In this document: positions 19,331 through 51,439 of the stretch, piece by piece
Position numbering within the stretch: position 1 is the stretch's first letter
How the letters are laid out: every line of letters begins with the position of its first letter
NCBI RefSeq assembly: GCF_036417845.1
Contig: NC_089979.1
Location: 121,119,415 to 121,183,414 of the forward strand
From: Apteryx mantelli
Lineage: Eukaryota > Chordata > Aves > Apterygiformes > Apterygidae
Length of the DNA: 64,000 nucleotides
Direction: 5' to 3'
Made by a program: the position numbers and the translations under genes
The notes under the pieces: model-generated
Databases searched by the model: none
Told to the model about the DNA's origin: nothing
Seen by the model: the letters and a program-made list of their open reading frames with translations, nothing else

Positions 19331-19336
19331 ACTTAC
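19331..19336 (-). other. consensus donor just after the gene A stop codon
   Basis: AAAGAG|GTAAGT lies six bases past TAA. It sits seven codons after the last conserved Cys, the distance at which the membrane-bound ACP3 form leaves exon 10 by my recollection. Confidence 0.6.
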
Positions 19337-19342
19337 CTCTTT

Positions 19343-19505
19343 TTATGTCTTAATCCTACATTCTCTTGTCCAATGGTGTACTAGGACTGGTGAGACCAAC
19401 TGAGTAAATCTCTCTAGTGGACAGCGAAATTTGCAGCCAGGGAGGGTGAGTGGGTGAGGATCTCTCAAAGAATTATTCCGATAGTACATTTCTATGGTGT
19501 ATTGC
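19343..19505 (-). CDS. ACP3-like: gene A exon 10 and stop
   Basis: 163 bp to TAA 19345-19343. Encodes [32 protein letters not shown] and [11 protein letters not shown], clear homologues of the ACP3 C-terminus with its three cysteines. The acceptor TTTGAATCAG has a weak pyrimidine tract. Confidence 0.88.
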
Positions 19506-22500
19506 CTGATTCAAAATATGCAAAGGTAAAAAAAACAGTTAGGCATGCAGAACCACACAGAACACGCTTTTGTGTTGCAGTCAATGTGCTTAGGGATGAA
19601 GCTTATTTGCCTTGCTATTAATAATACCATGAGTCCACTGAAAAGATCTTTTTAACCAATAGATGGTCAGTACCAATTTGCATGTAATTTGTCATCTTGG
19701 TAGAAAGTTAAGGAGTTAAATAGATAAACAGGATGGAGTAAAACCTCTCATAACTGTAATGAAGCAGTATACAGAGGGATTTCGAACTGTGGTGCTGTGA
19801 TTCTGCTACTTTCAGTAAGCACTAAATTGACTCCAATTGTAATAATTAAAATCAGTCTATACTCTTTTTCTGTGTAGTGAACCTTGTGTATCCAGTTTAA
19901 TTAGTCTGGGGTATCAGTAAATTGCTTTTTAGAAAAAGTACATGCTTTTCACACTTTTCAATACAGCTTTTTCCAGATACTTGCCCATTTTTTTCCTGAT
20001 AAAGTTCAAAAAAATGACAGGCACTGTAAGGAGGCAGTTTCCCATTGAAGACATTGAGTGCCATTTGTAAAGCAACAATAGTGGCTGCATGCTGTAAATA
20101 CAAGAAACCTTTCCGTTAAAGGCATATTGAAAATGACTTCATATAGCTATTACTTAATGTGTTCAGCACATTATTTGTACACATAACATTATTTGTGTGA
20201 CTTCATTAACACTTACCCTCTGCTGTCTGCAGTATTGACCAAATACTGTCCTGAAATGATGAATGTATAAAGTATATATATGTGTAAAAATTTAAGAAGC
20301 CGTAGGCATGTGCAGTTCTTATCAAAGTCAGTAGGAGCTGTGAAAACTTCTTTTAATAAGAGCCTGTGGTTTTGCATGTTAAGTAAAAAGCATTCGAGAT
20401 CAGATCAGAAAACTCATCGGCTGATATCACATCTGACAGGTCATGATCTAACTGCGATCAGAAATAGGAGCTTTTTACTAAAAGCAATCCAGAAATTTCC
20501 TTTTCCGGTGAGAGGGTTTGCACATTCTAAACAAAAGCAGAGTCACCATTTAGAAACTGCCTTCATAACATCTTCCAAATAACTAGATCTATCTCAATTT
20601 TTTTTCTTTATCATCTGAAAGATGCAGGAAGCAGGAGGTTTGTTTCTAAATCATCTGTGTGATACAAGTTCGATAAAACCAGAGGCTTGGTGTTTGAGAT
20701 CTCAACTCAATCAAAACAGTATTACAACGAAATAAACCACAACATCAGGTGAAAAATGGAATGCCACATGTTTCAAAGTATTATCTGTTCATTAAAGAAA
20801 TGAAAATAATCCACTGATATGTAAGATTACCAAAACCAAATGCTTGTGCCTGTGTTTCATGCAGGAAATGTAGTTTCATGTCTTTCACTGCATTTAATAA
20901 TTGCAAAAAGGTAACATAAAAACAAGAGAAAGGACTCACCGCAGAATACATAATCATCTTTTGCTGGTTTGAAGGCTTTCTAGCATCTGTCATGTGTTTT
21001 AGAATATTTTTTAAAAGAATACCTGAAAGAAAATTGGGGATCAATGACAATGACTGAAAGAGATGCTTGTGTTTACTTTTGTATCATTTGTTACCATCTT
21101 AACACAAGGTAATCTTTAAACACACCAGATTTACTAAATTCAGTTTATAGCTAATTTGTGTGTAGTGCCCTAGTAAGACTGATACTATCTTTTATATGAA
21201 CAGTAGGCCTGATTCTGATTCCCTATAACGTATCTTGGAATTCCTAATAGTCTAAAGGGTGTTAAACAATGCCTTCACAACTGCTTTGTGCCACCAGGAC
21301 TATGCAAGAGAGTAATGAATATTGCCCTCTTTCTGGTGTAACTCCATTGATTTTCTGATTTCCAGAGATACAGAAAGAAAAAATTCTTTGAACTATGTGC
21401 CTTCATAAATCATATGGTTGCCTGTATTTTGTTAAAGTCAACTGTTGAAAAATTGTAAGACAAACTGTATGAATTTAATCAGTGTCACTGCTAATATCTT
21501 AACATAAAGTTGGAATATTCCATGAAGAAAAATCCTAAGATGAGGACTGCACTGCTAGCAGAATTAAACACGCTTCAATTACTTCTTTAATTCAATTATG
21601 TCTTCAATTACTGGCAGAATTTTTTAACAACAATTAACAGTGAAGCAAGAATGGAGGTTTGAACTTAGCACTTAGTTTTGTATGTCTTGGAGCTCCAAAA
21701 AAAGGAAACAAATTAATCAGGGCTTATTTGTGATTTGTCCTAGTGGCTTATAGAACCTGATTAAACACAGCCATATAAAATAAAATTAGGCCAAAAGGAA
21801 GACAGAGAATGAGTGAAGGAAGAATTAGTGATTAAAAGGGTATAAACTATTTTTTAAATTCCTGAATTTCAGCTACTATCTGCTGAGTGGAATAAATCTT
21901 AGAAGCACTTTAATACTCTCATTTTAGTACTCCCAGCAATGGAATATGAAACTCTTAGGCAACAATGTTACCATGCTACAGTTTATTACAATTAATATTT
22001 TGTAAGTTAAACATGGTGGCTTACATTAAATTCAGACTTTATTCAGTCCAGTGAGAATTTGCATATTACTTCAGGATTTCTTACACACTATGATCAAAAT
22101 TATACCTCCTTTATAATGTTGAATTAGGATATTCATGAGTCATCACCACCTCTCTTACCATTGACCAAAATCTTTCAGTGCTGATCATCAATATCCATGT
22201 CATGACATCTTTTATAGTTCTACTATGGAATCAGTGGCAATGTTCATTATACATCCTTCATTTTCTGCTCTCCCATTGTATTCTTGATTTTAAATGGTGT
22301 AAAAATTCAGCTTACCTCCCTGTAAACGTGATTTTTGTATTTGTTTGTGAAAGCCAAATTCCGCCTGTAATAACAATTCTGAGAGCTTTATCAGCTTGGT
22401 CCTGACACCATGAGTAGCCCACACAGGTAAAGTGTAATTGTTAATATCCTACAGTGAAGAAAGAAAATATGGTGATTTTCTTACTGATTCCTACTGCTGG

Positions 22501-25500
22501 CTGTTGTTTATTTTGACACATAGTGCTTGTCAGAACAAATTCTGAATTTTTCATTCAAATAAAAGTTTCTCTTCATTTTATAATAAAATAATGACTATTT
22601 TTCATTACACATTTCATGTGTAATTCTCATAGCATTACATTGCTTAAAATAAATTTGAAGAGCAGTGTTCAACAGAAGAGGAAACAAAATACTAAAAACT
22701 ATTATGCAAAAAGGTGACTATGCCTACTGTCAGTTGCAAATGTCTTCTGACTCTTTCTTCTTCAGCCATCTACTAGACTATATCCTAAAATCTTTACTTA
22801 AAGAAATCCTATATAAACATCAGGTTTTTAAGGGTCAGCAGCTTTGAGAAATGAGGAAGATAAGATCCACGGATCAAGGAGGAATGTGCGTAGCTGCAAT
22901 TTGAATGTAGGGGAGTATATGCATAGGGGTTAGACATATAGATGGAACTCATATTTACACCAGCTTTATCGGATTCTGACTCAGTCCTCAGACAAAAGTG
23001 GAACGGATTCGTTTTTCTTTAGGGAAGCAGCCTAGGATATGTTAACGGTTACAACTATGCAAAGGAAAGAAAGACATGCCCAACACTGCTTCTTTGCACT
23101 GCGCTGAATTCCTGTTTAAACAAAACCCTTATTTTTCCTCTAGTTCAGTGTAACCTGTTTGACAGTGCACCATTGGACTGAGCGCACTAGTGAGAGCATT
23201 CTCATAACAATGAGTGCTAAAGAGAAGGCCAACTACTTAATGACAGGGTTTGTTTAAATAAGTGAAACAATAGAACATGTCAGGTTAAACCAGCTCAGGT
23301 CACAATGTATTACTTTTAACAAATCTGATTTGTATCTTGAGAAAAGAACTGGCTACTTGCATGCTATTTAAGACAGTGCTGTGGGCCAGCGAGCACCTCA
23401 GTCTCCAAGTTATCTGAAAGTCAGGTGGCACTTAGCCAATAATAGCTAATACAGAGAGATGAACCCTTCTGTAGCTTCATGTTTGAAACAACTGCATAGG
23501 AAGGCTCTTCTCGTATGCTTGTAAGGGTAAGAGCGTTTTTTTTTGTGGCAGATATCCTAACTGATACCTCCAGAGTCTCCACTGAGTAATAGGAAAGACC
23601 AAGGCTCATCAAATCCAGCACTAGAGGAAACAACCCAGCTAACTGGTTTTGTTTTCCAGCATTTAGATAGCTCTCTGATGGCAGCTGACAATTCTGTACA
23701 CATCTCTGGTGAGATGGATTTTTCTCTCAGAATGGTATAACATTTGCAGTAAAAACCTGTAGTCTTGAGCTGTTCTGCATTTGGACAGTACGGAAGGGTG
23801 ACCTCACTGAAATGGTAGTGAGGTGCCCCAACATGTTAACATTTCATTAAACTTAAGACCCTGGCTAACATTCCATTCAAGACTGGATTGACCAAAGTTG
23901 GACCTTTGCAGAAACTGCAGGACAGAAGGTAAGCTTATTACTATCACACCCAAGTATTATATGTTGCTTGTGAAATCCACCTTAAAACTGCCTCATTTTT
24001 TTTAGGGGATTTATTGTCCATATATTGTCAATATTGAGTTTACAAATAAGTATGTTGTCAGGTGGTTGTAGAAAGTGCTGCCTGCAACAACATGAAAAGC
24101 ATTTTTAACATGAGACCCTGCAATTGCAATTTTGACTTGCTTCAGTTGAGGTAAATTTGGACTTTAAAGTGACCTGAAGTGGGGCTTGTTGCCAAATTAA
24201 GGGCTTTTAGGATATTTACATATCCCAGTCAGAGTTACCAGACTTTTCATCAAGGAATGAGTAAGGCCTCTGATAACCTAATTCAGCACTGTAGGACGGA
24301 GACCCATGAAAGTTAAGCATCACAGTACCTCGTTGTTGTAAAATCCATGTTTCTCTGGGATATGCCCAGTCTGTGTGCTTAGAATAGCCTCCCGACCTTG
24401 TGCAAACATCCTTTTACGTCATTCCAGAGGATTCTTAATTCCTGAAAATCCTGTGTCTACTATGTCCAAATGCAAATAATGACTTTCCTTGCTTATGCAA
24501 CTTGAGCATAAATTTTTTGTGGAAGGATGCTTATGTTTCTTTGCCAACAACATATTTTACTCCTCTATATCTCTGTGATGGGGTTTGGAAGAGTAACAAG
24601 ACAAGTTTACCCAATTTGCTTTCCCCTAAGTTTCTATATGCAGTCACTGACAGGATGCTGGATTTAGCAGGCCATGGTTTGCTCTTCTTGTAGTGATGGA
24701 TTGCCTACAGCAGGCTCACAAAGTCACGGTGTGTGTACAGGATTTTCAGCTGCAAGTTTGATGGTGAGTAAGAATTTGTGGAGGGGAAGCTGAAAACCGT
24801 CTGTGGTTCACAAAAAGAATAGGAATCACAGACTTAATCCTCTTTGGATGTCTTACAAACCATGGAAATAAGAGGTAAAACTGATTTTGAGAAAATGTAA
24901 GTATTTCTATTGGCCTCAGGAATTTTCTTTATACTATTTACCTCATATTGTAAAGTGTCGGAGAGCTTCTGAATTCTTTCAGTGTTCAGCTTTTTCAATG
25001 GGTATCCAGCATGAGAGGCTAAAAACTTGAGAAATGGCTGGAAGACAAAAAAAAAAACTTGTACATTGGACACAGGGCCTTTTTATGTCATTCCTGCGCA
25101 ATGCCATAGTGGGACATAGCATTTTTTAGAAAAAGGAGAGTCTTTGCACTTATGTTACTAAGCAATGAACTTTTGCCTGGTGGTATTCACGGGTGGCCAG
25201 TCAGTGCCTGTTCAAGTGGATCCTCTTTCTTCCCTCATGCTCTGTTCTCATAACAATCCGGCAGACACCAAATGAATGCTTGCACAAAAGCTCTTAAAGA
25301 GCTTTTGAAAACTTGCTTTTATCCTGGTTTCTAGCCCTAATTGCCATCCTGCCTCTTCAGCTATGAAGGTACATGTCCTCATTCGTGGTCATACCTCCAG
25401 GCATTTTGCACTCTGGTACATGTTTCTCATAGGCTTGTCCCTTCCCAAAACAGCCTAGCTGACCTTTTCCCTGTGTCTGTCCTGTTCTTGAGTTGCCAAG

Positions 25501-28500
25501 TGCATGGCTTCACCACTCATGGCGGATTCAGTCCTACAGAACATCACGAATTTAGTAATCTAGATTCCTAATATCACATAACCCTTCATGGGGAAATTAT
25601 GATATTGGACAGGATGCCTCCATCAAGAAAGCTTAAAGATGCTGTTTTACACCTGATATATGCCACTAGCTTTTCTTTTTAGAGAGATCAAGGTTTTCTT
25701 TTGTGCTGATAAGAGAATTTGGCCTATTCCATCTAGAGAAGGATGGTGATCTGAGTTCAGATTCAAAGTATAGGGGAACTGTGTGGTGGGAATATTCAGG
25801 ATGGAGTAGAGTAGAAGGGATCCATATAATATGAGGAAATCTGGCAGAAAGCCAAAAAGTGCTTAAAAGGACAGTGATAAACAGAATCAGTCTGATGTTG
25901 GTACTGAGCAGAAGAGAGGCACTACATAAACTGGGTAAAAACAGAAATTGTGACTAGCTTGAATGTAATACCCAGATGCAGAGCCAGTGATAGATGGCAG
26001 AGATGAGTAAGTTCTTAAAGATGGTAGAAGGACAGGTGAGTTTGATAGTGCCATTTGAATAAACCCGAGAAGAAGAAAATTGCAGTAGACTACACAAGGG
26101 ATTATGTAGTCACGGCAAAGGGCTTGGTGGTGGAGAGAGAAAGGAAGGGATATACTATGGAGGAAAGGAGGAAACATATGTGAGCACCTGAGTGAAGACT
26201 TTGGATATGAAACATGAACAAGTGCTTGAAGAATGCACTGAGGCTATTAGAGAAAATCTAGGGAACTGAGCCATAAGAGTTTTGTGGGAGAAGAGGAATC
26301 TGAACTAGCAGAGAGTAATGTAGAGAGAGGTATCAGAGAAGGAGCTGCTAACATAAAACTAAACAGAGAGAGAGGGACTGGAGTGGGACACTGATTTAGT
26401 CTGAGTTTTTGTTTTGTAAATGTCTGCTCTTCTAGAAGGTAGGTGGAGTGGTTTTTACGAGGTAGTCAATAATTTATCTTTTCTATGACTGCAATTTTCA
26501 GCTGATAGGGATAGCCCAGTCCAGCTGGCTCTATAATGTTGTAACTGTTTTTTTTTTTGGTATGTTGCCTACACCCGCTATGAAGATTAGAGATTTAGAA
26601 GGACAATATTGACTGCCATTTTGGTGATCTATAATGTTGCCAGGAGTGGTACATTTTAATTATAAGATTTCCATAATTGAAAATAATTTACCCTGTATGG
26701 CTTGAGCTGCCTTTGGAAATCCCGTGTTGCAAAGGTTTCTTTCAGAAGCTCGTTGTATTCTGGGCAATGTGGGAAAGGTAAGTATAGCAACTGAAATGAG
26801 AATTGCAAAACATTAGTTAGGCAAGGCACTTGTTCTGCAATTTAATACATCATTGTGGGGTTGTAGTTCTGATTGACTGCACTCATTAGGACAAGCTGAA
26901 GAATAATATGGGGGTGTCATCTTCAAGGATGTTCACTTTTGGGACCATAAGAGCCATACTGATGACCAGCTACAAAAGAATCTTTAAATGTTCAGAGGGG
27001 TAATAGCTGCAGTAGTTCAACAGATTCATTCACACAAGATGAAATTCATCCCTGGACAGAAGACTAACACAAGCCCTCACATACTACTTTGTACTTGGCT
27101 TCCTCAGGGATGATTTCACTAATTGTGTTCAGTCTTTAAACACACTGTCAACTTTTTGCAGCAAATTGCCATGCAACAGCTGGACTGCAATAGGAGACTT
27201 TGTGCATACTCAGCTGTAGTAAGTGGACTTAACCACGGCTCCAATTAGTCCAGCTGCATCATAGAAACTTGTTAAGTTTCTAAAACTCAATTTTGTCTTC
27301 CATTCGAGACATTTGAAAACCTTATTTCAGGTAAGATTTTCCATAGGTTAAAGGTTACATGAGTGGAATGATTTAAGAATTTGTAAATTCATTTATTGAA
27401 ATAAACTGAGTTTATTCTTGTTTGAACTTTTTTGTATTAAATTTTGAACATAAGTTCAAACAAAATTTGAAACGGAGATTTTCTTAGTGTTTTTCTCTAA
27501 TGTGCTTTTTGTTCCTTTTCCACTAATAAAGCTCTATCTATATAGCCCCACAGTTAAAAGAATAGCTTTAAAAAGAACTTGAGAGTCTGGAAAGGATAAT
27601 TAGCTGCAAAAGCTTCACAGCAGTTCCTCAGTCTTTTTAGAAAGATAATCTATCTGTTTGAGAAGGTAGGTAGCTATTCCTGAATTCTAACCATAGGTTC
27701 ATGAACAGGCATGACTTTACCAATATTTGATGGACGCTTGTTTTAGTTGAAAAGATACTTGTGGTCTCAAAATTATGTACTTCTGATAAAGGTAAATAGA
27801 GTTACAGTACAAATAATGGAAAAAGGTAGGAAAAACACATATGTGTTTATGGCTTTATGATCTGTTTGAATAAATTTACCTGCTCCCCTAGATGTGAAGA
27901 AGGTACAGTAGCTGCTTGCTGAATTTGATAGTGGTGTTGATACCAGTCAGGTATTCTTGACTGTTTTCTTGGGTACCACCATCTGTGACACTATCAGAAG
28001 CAGCTCCTGACTCTATGCCAGACTGTGTGCATGCACAGGAAGACGTGTATCTCCGTATCCTCCTTCATGCTCTCATCACTCCCAGGTGAGAACTATTGCT
28101 CCGTGTCCCTGCTTAATCTGTTACGCTACTGCAGACTGTGTAAATTAGACTTGTAAGCTCACACAATCTATCTCACATCACATATGCTGTCCTCCTCTCT
28201 CAAACTTGGACTTACACTGTACCCTGATCTTCCTAGCTTTTTACCATAGCTTTTCCACAAATTGGGAACTACTGCACCACTCATCTGCCCAGCTTTCCCC
28301 TTTAGGACAGCTATATGCCACCTGCAGAGCTGGTATCCACACAAGTCCTTACAGCTCCAAGGTGGGGAGTAGAAGAAGGGAGATAAATAAATACATTGCC
28401 CTGTGAACTCATGCTCTTAAAACTCTGAGTCCTCTTTCCTTTCCCCTTTTATTTTTTCCACTAACCCACAAAGTGCATGAAGAATAATCCTGTGGCTCAA

Positions 28501-31500
28501 TTCTCATTGTATTGAGAATCACAAAATGATTCTCTTGCCTTTTCTGTTGGCCAGGGACTAAAAAAAGCTGAGGCACTAGTGAGAATAGTTATACTTCCTT
28601 TTCTCACATGGAGAAAGTCATTTTTGTGATAACACCATGTATAGGATTAATCTGTTACTACCTCTACGGTGTATTACTCATACATCATAGGTTAATTCTT
28701 TTTTCTGACCTTGAGACTTTTTTTTCTTCTATTTTCAATAACTCCAGGTCTCTGGAGTTAGTAAGTCTGTTCATTTGGAAACTCCTGACAATATTTCTAC
28801 TCAGCTTATTAGTCTTTTCTGCATAATGCTTGCATCTTAATGTACTTTTCATCACCTTCATCCTGCTCCTTCATCTCATATATCTTAGATATTCTACTAA
28901 TGACTAAGAATAAGCAAATGCTCCTAGTTTGTACTCACATTATCATGTGACAGTGGCACCGTGTGAACTGGAATTGGCTGCCAAAGGATTTTTGGGTTCC
29001 AGATTTGGCTCTGTGTCAGTGGGTACAGCCCAGCAAGACTTGCCTGAGCGCTCATAAGTGTTTGATCACAATCAGTGCTTTGAATGTAAATCTGAAGCAA
29101 GAAAAGAAAACAAGTTATTCATGGTCGTAGCTGGCAGCATATCCCTCCTGTTAGTTTTTGCTCTTGGTGGGAAAGAAAAGGACTGGTACTGTGCTGGGGG
29201 AACTGGCATTAAAATGGAGTAAAGAAGGTAAGATGGTAAAGAAGAACCCTGAGATAGAAAGGGGAGTGAGAAAGAGAATTAGAGTGAAACTGTCACAGGA
29301 CCTTGGAATACAAATTTGTTGTGCAAGGGAGTTGCAACATGGCAGCAGTTCCTTTGGAAATCCTATTGTAAAACATCAGACTAACTCCCTTTCATCACCA
29401 CTTTGTTTGGGACAACATGGATGCACTGGGCAGCTTGACCCTAAATGAAAGCGAGGCTGCATCCACTCTGGAGGTGGATGTACAGAATTAGAGATATCCA
29501 AGATAGATACTCTGACCTACAACAGTGAGGGAGCTGAACTTGATATACAGCATCATACACAGATCCCTGTACATGCTTTTCAGTTAAACCATCAGCCTGA
29601 ATAAAAGTGGAGCCACAACTTCAGGGATACTTTGAAACCACACTGAGTTCAGTAGGTATTAAGTGAACTCAGAGTATACCAGATTCAGACCCTCAGGCTT
29701 CCAGAAAGTCCCATTAACATCCATGAAAAACATCTTCCCTTCCAGATCCAATACTTGCCTCACACTGCTTGTATGCAATACTCAGGAAATGAGAGTATCT
29801 TCTCCGCGTGTACTGCCCAAGCTCATACTGTTTCTGTATGCCGAGCTGTGGAAATAACAGAATAGTGTAAGGAGCTCAGGATGTGTACTGTGTATCTAGT
29901 CCTAGAAAATGAGATCATCTTTCATATTATTTCGGTAAAGACCTTAAAATATTTCCTTTTTAAGGTGAAGGAGGAAAGAAGGCAGGAGGAAAATGCAGTA
30001 AAGTGGCTGTGTTTACAGTGTTGGAACTTCAGCTTTAGTATTTTCCAGCTTTCACCGTGAAACATGAACACTGAGTGAACATAGTCTCATTAATACTAAT
30101 TTCTTTAGCCACTGGAGAAAAAGGAGAGAAAGGATGTTCAGATTCAGACTACCTTGCATGCAGACTGAGATCATTATCAGTTTTTGAAATTCACATCTTA
30201 ATGAACAAGCAAACACAGCCCCCTCCATTTCTGGCTGTTGTGTAGTTAGATGCAACTTCCTGTAAATGGGGTTAATAAGGAAATAGCATATCTGTAGTGA
30301 TTCTAGGGCATTCATCATAGGCAAAGGATTGAATGTTTCACCTGGAGTGCCCAAATACTGTTGAATGAATTCAAAGGAAGTTAAAGGTGCTGTGCACTTG
30401 ATTAGTGAAGTGTGGCAGTTTAACTTATTTAAAAAGAGCCTATCAAGCTGGAGGGCAATATTGATATTAAAATAAATGAATATAAATTAATCATGAGCAC
30501 CTTTGGACTGGAAATTGGAAGGACCATCATGGGTGAAGTTCAGGAACAACCTTCCAGTGAAAGTACTGGAAGCAAGAATCCCTGACTAGTTTGAGGACAG
30601 AGCTTGTTACATGTATGAACCCAGATTGTATGATGTGGTTTTCTGCCATGGCAGGAGACTGGACTTGATTGCTTAACAGGTCCCTTCTATTCCTGCATTT
30701 TAAGAATTGTTGTATTAAAATCTGCTTATTCATTCTGTCAAATGCTATCGGCACAGTAGGTTTTATCATAAATGTTATCTGGAGATTCAGTGACCATAGG
30801 GCTCAGTGGGCCATGAGACAGCATGGGATGCAGTTTTGCATTTTGCTCTGCTAAAATCTGTGTAGGTGCTTATCCAAGCTAATAAGCCTGGCTGAGGGAC
30901 AGGATGACAGGCATAGCGATGTCCCAACTACACTGTCTAGTTTCTGCTTTGTTGCTGGCTCACAGCTAATTAACTGGGAGAACAGAGCAACCACCTGTCC
31001 ATGAAGACATGCCCAGGATATGGCTCCCATGGAATATCACCAAGTGGTTCCTTATGAAGGCCACAGCTTTAACTTATTTTTCAGGAAGACACAAAATCTT
31101 GAATAGAAGACCTTGAGTGAAAGGAAGTCCTCCTTGCCTTCAGGTATTTTCTTCCAGTGGTTAATTATTATCTTCAGTCTGCAACATTTGCTTCTTAGAT
31201 CTTGTCTGAATGTCCCCAGCTTTTAGCCACTAGATTTTGTTACACTTTTGGTATGATACATTATCTACCATCACAAATCTTACCCCCAATAAGATAGTAA
31301 TTGACAAAACAGAATCCATTCACTTAATCTTCTGTGTTAAACTAAATAGATGATAGTTCTCTACTCTCACAGCAAAATGGTTTTTTTAACCTCAAGTGAT
31401 TTTTGTAGCTCTTTACTGAACATTTTCCAACTTCTCAGCATCATTTTCTAAACACAAGACATGAGATTGCATGCATTGTCCTTGTAACGGTCTCAGTAAT

Positions 31501-34500
31501 GTTATATGTTGCGATCTTCTTACTTGTACCTGGTGTTTCCTGGCCTAAATTGCAATATATTTGACTCTGCTCATGTAATCACTGCTTGCATTGGGATCTC
31601 AAAAGCAGTGATTATCCATTGTTTCCCAAAGTCCTTTCTTGAGTCATAGGATTACAGGATAAGTCAGGTTAAAAACGACCTTAGGAGGTTTCTAGTCCAA
31701 CCTCCTGCCCAAAGCAGAGTCAGCTATGAAGTCAGACTGGGTTACTCAGAACTTTATCCAGAGTCACTACTTTCTGAACATGGCCCCCAGTATATAAATG
31801 TGATCACCTCTTTTAATTGCTAGAGTTGTGTGTCCAGAGTTTCCTAGGGTATACACTTGGCCTAGGCTTCTGCCCTAACTTGTTTACTTTGTGTATTGTT
31901 AAATCCTGATGCCTGGGTCTTGGAGCCTTCCAGAACCTGTGTGGCCTGGAGCAAGCCAGCATGTAGTGCTGCACTCTCATAGTGCGTGTGTGTAATGATT
32001 GAGTCATAGGTGAGTTAAGGCAGAGGTAACTGGTCTTAACCATCTTTCAGACATTCATTGTTTCTTCCTACCTGATAATGAGCTTTGCTGCACAGATATT
32101 ACTCCTCTGTTTGTTTGAGGGAGGTGGCGTGAGTGGAAACAGGCCTGACATTGCATCAGAGATTAATATGGCCTCCTAAGCATGGAGTGGAGGAGGACCC
32201 CCTGTGCAGCTTGTTCTATTCTCATTACAGTGGAGAGGTGGCAAATGATTAGTTCTCCCAGGAGAAATACATGTACGTTGTGCTAGACATAAGGTGTGTG
32301 AGCAAACTTACTCTACAGCAGCCTACAAGAGAAACATGCACCTCACAGTCTGTCTATGCATGCAAGATAGCCATGTGTCTGGCACTTCCAGACTCCCAGC
32401 ACATCTAAGCTACTTCAGTGAGGCTGCCTGATCTCTAAAGTCCTGGACAAATGACTAATGTTTTCTTCCATCCACACAACACATCTGGGTGGGGAAAAGG
32501 AAGAAGACACAAACACAGTGGGTAGTGCTTATGAGAGTGAAGCATGGGTAGGGTTAAAACCTTTTAGTTTCCTCATGTTTCCTTGGTACCTGGAGTACAG
32601 GAGCTCACCCTCTGCTCCATTCACAAGAGGAAATACAATTACGCAAAAACAAACTGGGTTTCAGTTAACCCAAAAATTAACTCAGGAAAGACTGTTTCTG
32701 CAATTAGGCTCTGCAGTTGTCATCTTAGCTGCTGTTAGTTACTACCTTCAGCGGATACGCAGTTCTGCCCTAGTTCCACCAATACCTGCACTAAAACAGC
32801 TGATCTTTAAATCAGCTCTCCCTAGCATAGCATGAGAGAAGTTTCTGCTAGCAGTACTGATCTCAGCTATGAAGTTCATGAGCTAGGAAGCACTCCTGCT
32901 CAGTGGAGATGGAGAGTGGTCTGCGAGCACTTCCACTGCTTTGTGCTACTGAGGGCTAAAGCTAAGTGCTTGGTGTCAGGTGAACTGTGATGGTCACTGG
33001 TGCCTGGCTCTTCCCAGAAGACAGTAATCTGCCTGCAATCAAACAGCTCAGTGTATGCTGCTTTTGGTCTTGAACAGGACCACTCATTTAAAACCAGTGA
33101 CTGCTCACAGCTGTAGCTTCCTAGCAAGTTCTTTGGCCTATGAGGGAGCTGTATGTGGCAACCTAATATGGGCTTTCTCCAAACTAAAACAAAGTTCCAA
33201 CAAACAAATGTCAATAGACACCAGCTTGTTCCAATATTTAACTATATTGGCCCAGGGAAGCAAACAGACCTTGGTAAGTTGTCCATATCCTTGCTGCCTT
33301 GCAACTTCTTTATGCTTGTCAGTTGGAAAAAACTCCTGTGGAGTATCATCACCATGGCGAAACACCTGATAAAAAAGATGGAATTGCTTTCATGTTACTG
33401 TGCTTTATATAGTGGTTATAATTAGTGTGGTCCCAGGGAAAATGCATCAACAGTGAGTACTGTATCTGACAGGTGCAAAATATATTCATGACGTTCTTGG
33501 GTCTAGATAGCTACAATACATATTTGCCTGATTTATTTAGACAACTGTTACAGCTTTTTTTCTCTTCATTTGAAAGCAGTTAGTTCACAGAAACTTTTGC
33601 AAGTTATATATATGCTACACAACATTTTATAGATTTTAGAGAGGTCAGAAAACTTTGAGAGGTATAGACCACAAAATGAATTAGACAGAAAACCAATAGA
33701 AATATATACATAATTTTTCAGAAATACTGGAATGTCAATATTTTGGTAGGACTATCTAGGAATCCAGAAGGAAGAAAATCAGACTATTGCTCTAAATACA
33801 GTTCCCGTGGCTGTCTGCTGCTAATCACTCTTTCTTGGCAGAAATTATCCTTAAAAAGCCTTGTGTTGGCAGGCACCAGAGGTGCTGAAAGTGTCATCTA
33901 ATATCTAAATACACGCTAGACTGTTATTATGAAAACATTGAACCTGCCTTGAAATTTCACTTCAGACAAAAGATACATATATAAAGATAAATTAAGATTT
34001 TTCATTTATTCAGTGAATTCTCACGTTGTCCAGCATAATTCCTGTAGATGTGTGTCATGTCATCTTAAAATTTTACCACCAGCTTTTTTATTCCTTTGTC
34101 AAAATAAGGGTAAATAAAATTAACAACTGCAGCGCAAAAACATACATATGATTTACATGCATGTGTGCAATACTCAGAACAGACCAAATTCAGGCCTCCT
34201 ACAAACACAGATACCTTATAATCATTGCAAATAGCATTAGTTTACAGCATTGGTTCTATGTCATTTATTCAATGCAATTTATACCAGTTTGGGTTTCACA
34301 TAATAACCACTGATTTGCTTTTTTATCCACTGTTTTCTTCCATGGCACAGAGGAATTTTGCAGACAGTTAAAATCAGTTATGGAATCCTATTTTACAATA
34401 TAAGAAGAATCCTGTTGGATTCCTCTCTTATTGTTGTAAAAAAGGCAGTCTTTATCAATCCAGAAAGTTACTTCCATCCAGGATTGCAAAAAGGAGAGAA

Positions 34501-34768
34501 AATCACAAAATCTTACTTAAAATTTGGGACTCTTTTCACAGAATACAATAGTGGATTTTGAATATACAGCGAACACCTCAATATTCACAGTGTACCCCCT
34601 GTCCCCCACTGTAGACTACAAGAAGAGCATGAAGTCCATGAACTATCTACTTACTAATGACACAAACTTCAGTTTTCTTTTTGCAGTGGTTTGGTGAAGA
34701 AAAATGCAGAAAAGGCAGAACATGAAACATAGACTCCAAATTCCACACACCAGCTGTCTTGCTCTCAT
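19343..34768 (-). CDS. ACP3-like: gene A: complete ACP3-like acid phosphatase paralogue, predicted catalytically dead
   Basis: Ten coding exons (minus strand) total 1131 nt, 376 codons plus TAA, close to human prostatic acid phosphatase (386 with signal). Residues 1-29 form a signal peptide; [12 protein letters not shown] starts the catalytic fold. Exon lengths and phases in exons 1-4 equal gene B. No stop or frameshift interrupts the frame if two GC donors are used. The motif RHGxRxP reads RHGDDTP (Arg to Asp45), the YIRSTD Arg is Gln103, and the catalytic HD pair reads H288-A289. These correspond to Arg15, Arg79 and Asp258 of mature human enzyme, so phosphatase activity is probably lost. 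Five of six disulphide cysteines remain (C159, C312, C347, C351, C372); the partner of C312 is Tyr214. Sequons N219 and N333 are kept. A secreted pseudoenzyme is the best reading; early decay of a duplicate is the alternative. Confidence 0.9.
19979..19984 (-). other. overlapping GC and GT donors at the end of gene A exon 9
   Basis: GCAAGT (19984-19979) contains GT at 19980-19979. Using the GC joins GG to exon 10's G and keeps the family frame. Using the GT adds four bases and shifts exon 10 into a frame with an early stop. Confidence 0.7.
19985..20091 (-). CDS. ACP3-like: gene A exon 9 (catalytic HD replaced by HA)
   Basis: 107 bp if the GC donor is used, ending in phase 2. Opens [17 protein letters not shown] where active family members have HDTT, then [17 protein letters not shown]. 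Acceptor TGTATTTACAG. The donor is GG|GCAAGT; a GT four bases downstream is the alternative. Confidence 0.88.
20940..21022 (-). CDS. ACP3-like: gene A exon 8
   Basis: 83 bp completing the split Gly codon. Encodes [11 protein letters not shown], then QKMIMYSA, matching the conserved strand before the catalytic HD. Acceptor TTTCTTTCAG, donor GTGAGT. Confidence 0.92.
22316..22448 (-). CDS. ACP3-like: gene A exon 7
   Basis: 133 bp, ending in phase 1. Encodes [12 protein letters not shown], then [16 protein letters not shown] and KSRLQG, aligned to family signatures (LPxWAT, SRLQGG). Sequon N219. Acceptor TTCACTGTAG, donor GTAAGC. Confidence 0.92.
24942..25037 (-). CDS. ACP3-like: gene A exon 6
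   Basis: 96 bp, 32 codons, one codon longer than human by my count. It ends SDTLQYE where the family has a Cys (DPLYCE in human), so a disulphide partner is lost. Acceptor follows a long T tract, TGTCTTCCAG; donor GTAAAT. Confidence 0.88.
25285..25307. repeat. inverted repeat, 11-bp arms, 1-nt spacer
   Basis: CAAAAGCTCTT, A, then the exact reverse complement. It lies in gene A intron 5. Confidence 0.85.
26692..26790 (-). CDS. ACP3-like: gene A exon 5
   Basis: 99 bp, 33 codons. Encodes [16 protein letters not shown], very like mammalian ACP3, with the conserved Cys (C159). Acceptor CTCATTTCAG, donor GTAAAT. Confidence 0.92.
27418..27463. repeat. inverted repeat, 12-bp arms
   Basis: TTGTTTGAACTT (27418-27429) and its exact reverse complement (27452-27463) flank a 22-nt AT-rich loop. 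It lies in gene A intron 4. Confidence 0.85.
28939..29091 (-). CDS. ACP3-like: gene A exon 4
   Basis: 153 bp, 51 codons. Encodes [15 protein letters not shown] and [15 protein letters not shown]. Gln replaces Arg both before STD (shared with gene B) and in the DRT triplet (only gene A). Donor GTGAGT. Confidence 0.93.
29753..29758 (-). other. GC-type splice donor of gene A intron 3
   Basis: GAG|GCAAGT is at exactly the site where gene B has GAG|GTATGT. GCAAGT after AG is the classical form of the minority GC-AG intron. No GT at the site keeps the frame and length. Confidence 0.85.
29759..29845 (-). CDS. ACP3-like: gene A exon 3 (GC donor)
   Basis: 87 bp, 29 codons. Encodes [14 protein letters not shown] and then [10 protein letters not shown]. 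The sequon found here in gene B is lost. It ends GAG|GCAAGT. Confidence 0.9.
30512..30712 (+). mobile_element. CR1 LINE 3' fragment
   Basis: Ends with TTCTGCCATGGCAGGAGACT, a GGACTTGAT-type segment and AGGTCCCTTCT, the conserved CR1 3' signature in forward orientation. The upstream part (GTGAAGTTCAGGAACAACCT) also matches CR1. Diverged, so old. Confidence 0.7.
31640..31766 (-). mobile_element. CR1 LINE 3' fragment
   Basis: Reads as the complement of a CR1 3' end: GAGTCATAGGATTACAGGAT, then CGACCTTAGGAGGT and TCTAGTCCAACCTCCTG. Matching stops near ATCCAG. Confidence 0.75.
33270..33365 (-). CDS. ACP3-like: gene A exon 2 (altered active-site motif RHGDDTP)
   Basis: 96 bp, 32 codons. VFRHGDDTP replaces the expected RHGDRTP. 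The codon is GAT where gene B has CGA, so at least two base changes. The tail GYGQLTK is conserved. Acceptor TTTTTTATCAG, donor GTCTGT. Confidence 0.92.
34655..34768 (-). CDS. ACP3-like: gene A exon 1 (signal peptide)
   Basis: 114 bp, 38 codons. ATG at 34768-34766 with A at -3. RAR precedes a hydrophobic core ([14 protein letters not shown]), with probable cleavage after TTA and then KRKLKFVSL. Donor GTAAGT at 34654-34649. Confidence 0.87.
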
Positions 34769-51342: not shown

Positions 51343-51439
51343 CATACCATACCACACCATACCACACCATACCACACCATGCCACGCCATGCCATGCCAT
51401 GCCATACCATACCATACCCTACCATACCATACCATACCG
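51343..51439. repeat. interrupted pentanucleotide microsatellite (CCATA and variants)
   Basis: About 19 units of 5 bp in ordered variant blocks: alternating CCATA and CCACA first, then CCATG/CCACG, then pure CCATA. The minus strand reads (TGGTA)n-like. Confidence 0.92.

Follow-up and report, generated by a model that had tools for sequence, protein, structure and literature searches.

A tandem relative of ACP3, the prostatic acid phosphatase (PAP) gene, lies at 34768-19343 on the minus strand of the window analysed here, a stretch of 64,000 nucleotides from the kiwi Apteryx mantelli (contig NC_089979.1, positions 121,119,415 to 121,183,414). Its predicted product lacks the residues corresponding to human Arg15, Arg79 and Asp258; gene and product are called altered below, as opposed to the active ACP3 genes and proteins that retain these residues. 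The comparisons indicate that the altered gene is an old, constrained ACP3 paralogue and not a decaying copy, because it is conserved from turtle to birds. Our preferred explanation, which we consider reasonably probable, is that a tandem ACP3 copy, long established in turtles, crocodilians and birds, specifies a soluble secreted glycoprotein that no longer has the catalytic set or the membrane anchor and acts as a binder in the oviduct or egg.

The altered kiwi protein matches the Pfam family His_Phos_2 (PF00328; 1.6e-28, 100.6 bits against a curated cut-off of 23.6). Its closest solved structures are rat and human PAP (E ~1e-120), and a structure model predicts that the PAP fold is intact. 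The RHxxR signature of branch 2 of the histidine phosphatase superfamily reads RHGDD in kiwi, the second arginine being absent, and the HD acid motif of the PF00328 family reads HA. Aligned to the PAP chains and in human residue numbering, the active set Arg11, His12, Arg15, Arg54, Arg79, His257 and Asp258 becomes Arg, His, Asp, Arg, Gln, His and Ala. A sequence-only reading of this DNA had reported RHGDDTP, HA and a glutamine for the YIRSTD arginine. The residues are as it stated, but its equation of that arginine with Arg79 does not stand: it is residue 73, which is glutamine in 54 of 79 active proteins and in the kiwi's own active sibling (YIQ), so we rejected its loss as evidence of a dead site. 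The true Arg79 lies six residues further on and is also glutamine in the altered kiwi protein.

How general is this pattern? The comparison set comprised the window protein and 135 homologues, taken from the top 120 of 1121 matches in one search and the top 120 of 1241 in another. These 136 proteins include partial, mis-spliced and fused models, and several rows for some species, so some odd residues may be annotation errors. Arg15 and Asp258 are retained in 79 of the 136, and the same 79 all have Arg79, Arg11 and His257. In 55, Arg15, Arg79 and Asp258 are jointly absent, and there are no intermediates; the other two (P0047 and P0056) have a gap at position 15, lack Arg79 and Asp258, and were placed in neither class. 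In the 55 altered rows position 15 is His in 43, Asp in six, Leu in two, Gln in two, Tyr in one and Ala in one; position 79 is His in 35, Gln in 15, Tyr in three and Pro in two; and position 258 is Ala in 49 and something else in six. Retention is high for His12 (53/55), Arg54 (52/55), His257 (50/55) and Arg11 (49/55). In the galliform rows P0006, P0007 and P0043 the Arg11 of RHG is also replaced, by histidine. At least two rows scored as active, P0030 and P0050, also contain stretches of altered type and are apparently annotations in which the tandem pair has been fused.

For the tree, 26 altered and 43 active rows were taken, 69 of the 136, with most fragments and fusions left out. All 26 altered rows form one side of a 100/100 branch, apart from the active ACP3 rows. 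The altered group runs from turtles through crocodilians to palaeognath and neognath birds; the row nearest the window protein is that of A. owenii. Since the group spans turtles, crocodilians and birds, the loss of the residues predates the turtle-archosaur split, about 250 million years ago, and the duplication is at least as old as that split. Duplication in the turtle-archosaur stem would make the altered rows (26) a clade with the active rows of turtles, crocodilians and birds (18); that clade was borderline rejected (approximately unbiased test, p 0.043), so an older duplication with losses elsewhere is possible. In a re-run tree the altered rows and all 27 active sauropsid rows fell on one side with weak support (80/47). 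The comparison set, limited to those top 120 matches of 1121 and of 1241, contained no altered copies from squamates, mammals or amphibians, and members further down the two lists are possible.

Constraint was gauged at the protein level with the altered and active sequences of five species, ten in all, over the 342 alignment columns without a gap in any of them. Compared with the turtle Carettochelys, the four birds are identical at 251-259 of 342 columns (73-76%) in the altered protein and at 220-228 (64-67%) in the active one; column sign tests of altered versus active gave p 0.0015 to 0.025 for these four bird-turtle comparisons, which are not independent, since all use the same turtle. 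At least 90% conservation is found in 205 of the 342 columns in the 26 altered rows and in 190 when the active rows of turtles, crocodilians and birds (18) are taken; the two sets differ in species. The 43 active rows have 103 columns with at least 95% conservation. Of these, 86 stay at least 90% the same in the altered rows, whereas agreement drops below 70% in 11, namely human 15, 31, 32, 79, 94, 142, 174, 183, 187, 258 and 259 (Thr259); 174 and 183 sit in exon 6, mis-spliced in several models. Three of the six catalytic columns are among the 11 lost (hypergeometric chance 0.015), and Cys183 is absent from most archosaur altered rows. Full-length altered orthologues of 374-376 residues occur in birds, in which the sequence-only reading had proposed to look for them, and also in alligator and turtle. 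This deep conservation across birds, crocodilians and turtles supports its claim that the open frame has been retained despite loss of the catalytic set. Residues 1-31, which are largely signal peptide (34768-34676), are unusually alike, with 23-26 of 31 identical in four altered comparisons among bird, alligator and turtle versus 12-21 of 31 in six active ones.

Splicing the kiwi exons from 34768 to 19343 (minus strand) bore out the predicted gene: ten exons, one open frame of 376 codons plus stop (1131 nt) and a signal peptide. The frame equals the A. owenii model P0027 apart from the two ends of P0027 and its absent exon 6. AG is found at all nine acceptors; GT is the donor in seven introns and GC in the other two, which follow exons 3 and 9. 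With an open frame, uniform AG acceptors and only GT or GC donors, the gene does not have the marks of a pseudogene. Past exon 3, eight bird altered models read Glu-Ala-Ser, like the kiwi GC intron, and a search of the bird altered models for Glu-Val-Ser, expected from a GT donor, found none. Past exon 9, eleven bird altered models read Gly-Gln-Val; a GT donor there would create a stop. Both GC donors are thus common to other birds, and we rejected them as lesions. Gly-Gln-Val-Ser also occurs in seven of 76 models searched as active and in the kiwi sibling, and the exon 9 GC donor probably predates the duplication; the exon 3 donor of the sibling is GT. Homology-based bird models often read through these two GC-AG introns. 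The full-length altered models share their length and a tail-less C-terminal end, and comparison with P0077 found no membrane-tail exon of the altered gene in the window. The kiwi altered protein is predicted to be soluble. A GTAAGT just past the stop of its gene (Table 1) may be what is left of the splice donor that precedes the membrane-tail exon of active ACP3 genes.

Where is the gene used? RNA-seq and qPCR of the Putian duck shell gland report a 'prostatic acid phosphatase-like' gene, 101805018 (PMC6339300). The duck primers have 2 + 1 mismatches to window exon 4 and 6 + 4 to exon 4 of the sibling. They encode MSAQASL and PVHTVP, as in altered Cygnus and Anser, whereas active Anseranas reads MSAQSCL. 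The primer match indicates that duck LOC101805018 is the orthologue of the altered gene, which is accordingly transcribed in the duck shell gland; the sequence-only reading had proposed looking for spliced transcripts. At the level of names, with the paralogue unverified, 'Prostatic acid phosphatase-like' makes up 0.29% of zebra finch eggshell by intensity-based absolute quantification (iBAQ; PMC4666066), and a data table for chicken eggshell membrane includes LOC428451 (PMC6811977), likewise a name-level match of unverified paralogue.

Arg15 and Arg79 (phosphate binding) and Asp258 (proton donor) are gone from all 55 altered rows, and constraint remains strong on the fold, the signal peptide and most structural residues. 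Under our preferred explanation the ACP3 copy has shed the membrane anchor as well, and the oviduct would secrete the altered protein into the egg envelopes, where it may bind a partner or an anionic ligand through surfaces derived from ACP3 and through the changed pocket, which mostly retains Arg11, His12, Arg54 and His257, the phosphate not being removed. In this family the RHxxR histidine is the nucleophile, the arginines bind the substrate phosphate and the aspartate is the proton donor, and in yeast Vip1 alanine at either RHxxR arginine or at the histidine greatly lowers activity (PMC11836120). Loss of two arginines and the aspartate should therefore cripple ordinary turnover, and we infer that the altered protein is non-catalytic.

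Several observations count against this explanation. Rat fructose-2,6-bisphosphatase retains some activity without its catalytic histidine. In Vip1, replacement of the acid residue by alanine activates the enzyme (PMC11836120). Because of these two counter-examples inactivity can only be inferred. In human PAP, His12 to Ala serves as the catalytically dead control (PMC8373891), and the altered kiwi protein retains His12; its retention with His257, at the counts given above, is unlike a drifting site. Of the six bird-bird pairs, five have more identical columns in the active protein than in the altered one, and the sixth is reversed by one column. On the side of the egg, only the duck RNA is assigned to a paralogue, and the duck primers alone do not prove splicing because the amplicon lies within one exon. 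Gene 101805018 also appears in duck ovary, with counts of 0.00 and 0.86 (PMC10887599), and the eggshell table of PMC4666066 marks chicken as 'low' and has a dash in the turkey and quail entries. Oestrogen-response elements give two one-mismatch matches in the window versus 1.32 expected, one of them intragenic and none near the promoter.

Could the altered protein be an enzyme with changed chemistry, in which His12, assisted by other residues, still takes a phosphate or other group wherever the substrate has a good leaving group? The retained His12, Arg11, His257 and Arg54 favour this, as does the persistence of activity after catalytic-residue loss in Vip1 and fructose-2,6-bisphosphatase; but the substitutes at positions 15 and 79 are varied, with no fixed new residue, and alanine for the second RHxxR arginine, the one lost in kiwi, is among the changes that greatly lower Vip1 activity, and we think such an enzyme unlikely. 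PAP is a dimer, and the altered protein might instead pair with ACP3 subunits and lower or redirect their activity. The tandem sibling on the same strand, the shared fold and Trp106, which we take to be a PAP dimer residue and which is present in all 26 altered tree rows, speak for such a regulator; an identity of 51-56% between altered and active proteins within one species speaks against it, and we give it a slightly smaller chance. That the gene is decaying, its frame intact by chance, would fit the two GC donors and the many partial bird models. We nevertheless rejected decay as barely credible, given the 100/100 altered clade, the full-length orthologues from turtle to birds, a constraint comparable to that on the active gene, the GC donors of other birds and the duck transcripts.

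The flea salivary proteins XcAP-1 to -3 (PDB 8gdl; PMC10728186) offer a known parallel, being likewise secreted, of the same fold family and with an incomplete catalytic set. They fail to hydrolyse p-nitrophenyl phosphate, and their ligands are amines and leukotrienes. An altered protein that scavenges small amines or lipids in their manner seems to us improbable: the flea proteins lack His12 and His257, both present in kiwi, identity to the flea protein is 18%, and the amine pocket is absent from human PAP according to the flea paper. The losses are in fact nearly the reverse of each other, since kiwi keeps the histidines and loses the arginines and the aspartate, and XcAP-1 also lacks strand 3. 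The flea loss is recent and flea-specific, with ligands shown, whereas that in the altered gene is old. By a bolder extension of our preferred explanation, an acid phosphatase became a dedicated non-enzymatic egg-envelope protein about 250 million years ago, on the lineage of turtles, crocodilians and birds, and, in many neognaths and a crocodile, a pocket with four histidines (human 12, 15, 79 and 257) binds a metal ion or other new ligand in the forming egg; we regard this as a long shot.

The active sibling lies just downstream of the altered gene on the same strand and extends past the left edge of the window, to window coordinate -13743. It has the membrane-tail exon and the motifs RHGDRTP, STDYDR and HDTT. 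A third close relative in the kiwi genome, an acid phosphatase at G000:C4, belongs to the same superfamily as the altered protein and, unlike it, keeps the catalytic motifs (RHGDRSP, STDCDR, HDTT); it is presumably of the lysosomal type and looks like ACP2. Elsewhere in the window, a 113-residue open frame at 627-968 resembles by eye a piece of retroviral envelope and has no Pfam match at E 0.1, and a 5-base microsatellite of about 19 copies lies at 51343-51438. Pfam searches with eight other open frames of the window gave nothing above cut-off, and Rfam over the window gave 0 matches.

Table 1. Exons of the altered gene and of its active sibling in the kiwi window
Feature	Position	Strand	Remarks
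Altered gene, exon 1	34655..34768	-	residues 1-38; signal peptide ~1-29, predicted by eye
Altered gene, exon 2	33270..33365	-	RHGDDTP codons 33339-33359; Asp for Arg15 at 33345-33347
Altered gene, exon 3	29759..29845	-	GC donor (29758); Arg54 present, codon 29804-29806
Altered gene, exon 4	28939..29091	-	YIQSTDCDQ; Gln for Arg79 at 29062-29064; duck primer site
Altered gene, exon 5	26692..26790	-	
Altered gene, exon 6	24942..25037	-	Trp174 and Cys183 gone
Altered gene, exon 7	22316..22448	-	human Asn188 glycosylation sequon retained
Altered gene, exon 8	20940..21022	-	
Altered gene, exon 9	19985..20091	-	GC donor (19984); His257 retained, Ala for Asp258, codons 20086-20091
Altered gene, exon 10	19343..19505	-	stop TAA 19343-19345; no membrane tail
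GTAAGT, six bases past the altered-gene stop	19331..19336	-	candidate donor relic
Active-type sibling ACP3, exons 1-4	~10782-10669, 4578-4483, 3132-3046, 2176-2024	-	agrees piecewise with P0077 (Apteryx mantelli)

From ACP3 itself (PDB 1nd6, 1rpa, 8xj4) the altered protein differs in lacking Arg15, Arg79, Asp258 and the membrane tail and in forming a separate branch. A search of titles and passages in the open-licence PubMed Central literature, with subscription papers and supplements outside its scope, found no description of a vertebrate altered protein as inactive, and the passages of PMC6347800, PMC4608100, PMC12128419 and PMC8536833 contain nothing on the altered gene. The bird 'prostatic acid phosphatase-like' entries (duck LOC101805018, perhaps also chicken LOC428451 and zebra finch gi|449493197) are labelled as phosphatases, with no mention of the lost residues in the passages concerned. 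The same label is applied to active copies, so that in bird studies it covers both an enzyme and a protein that probably is none. Claims of pseudoenzymes often rest on a single genome; here the loss is dated before the turtle-archosaur split. The altered protein, about as constrained as the adjacent enzyme sibling, would be a clean natural experiment on the phosphatase fold without its catalytic set and, if it is a true egg protein, a neglected component of turtle, crocodilian and bird eggs.

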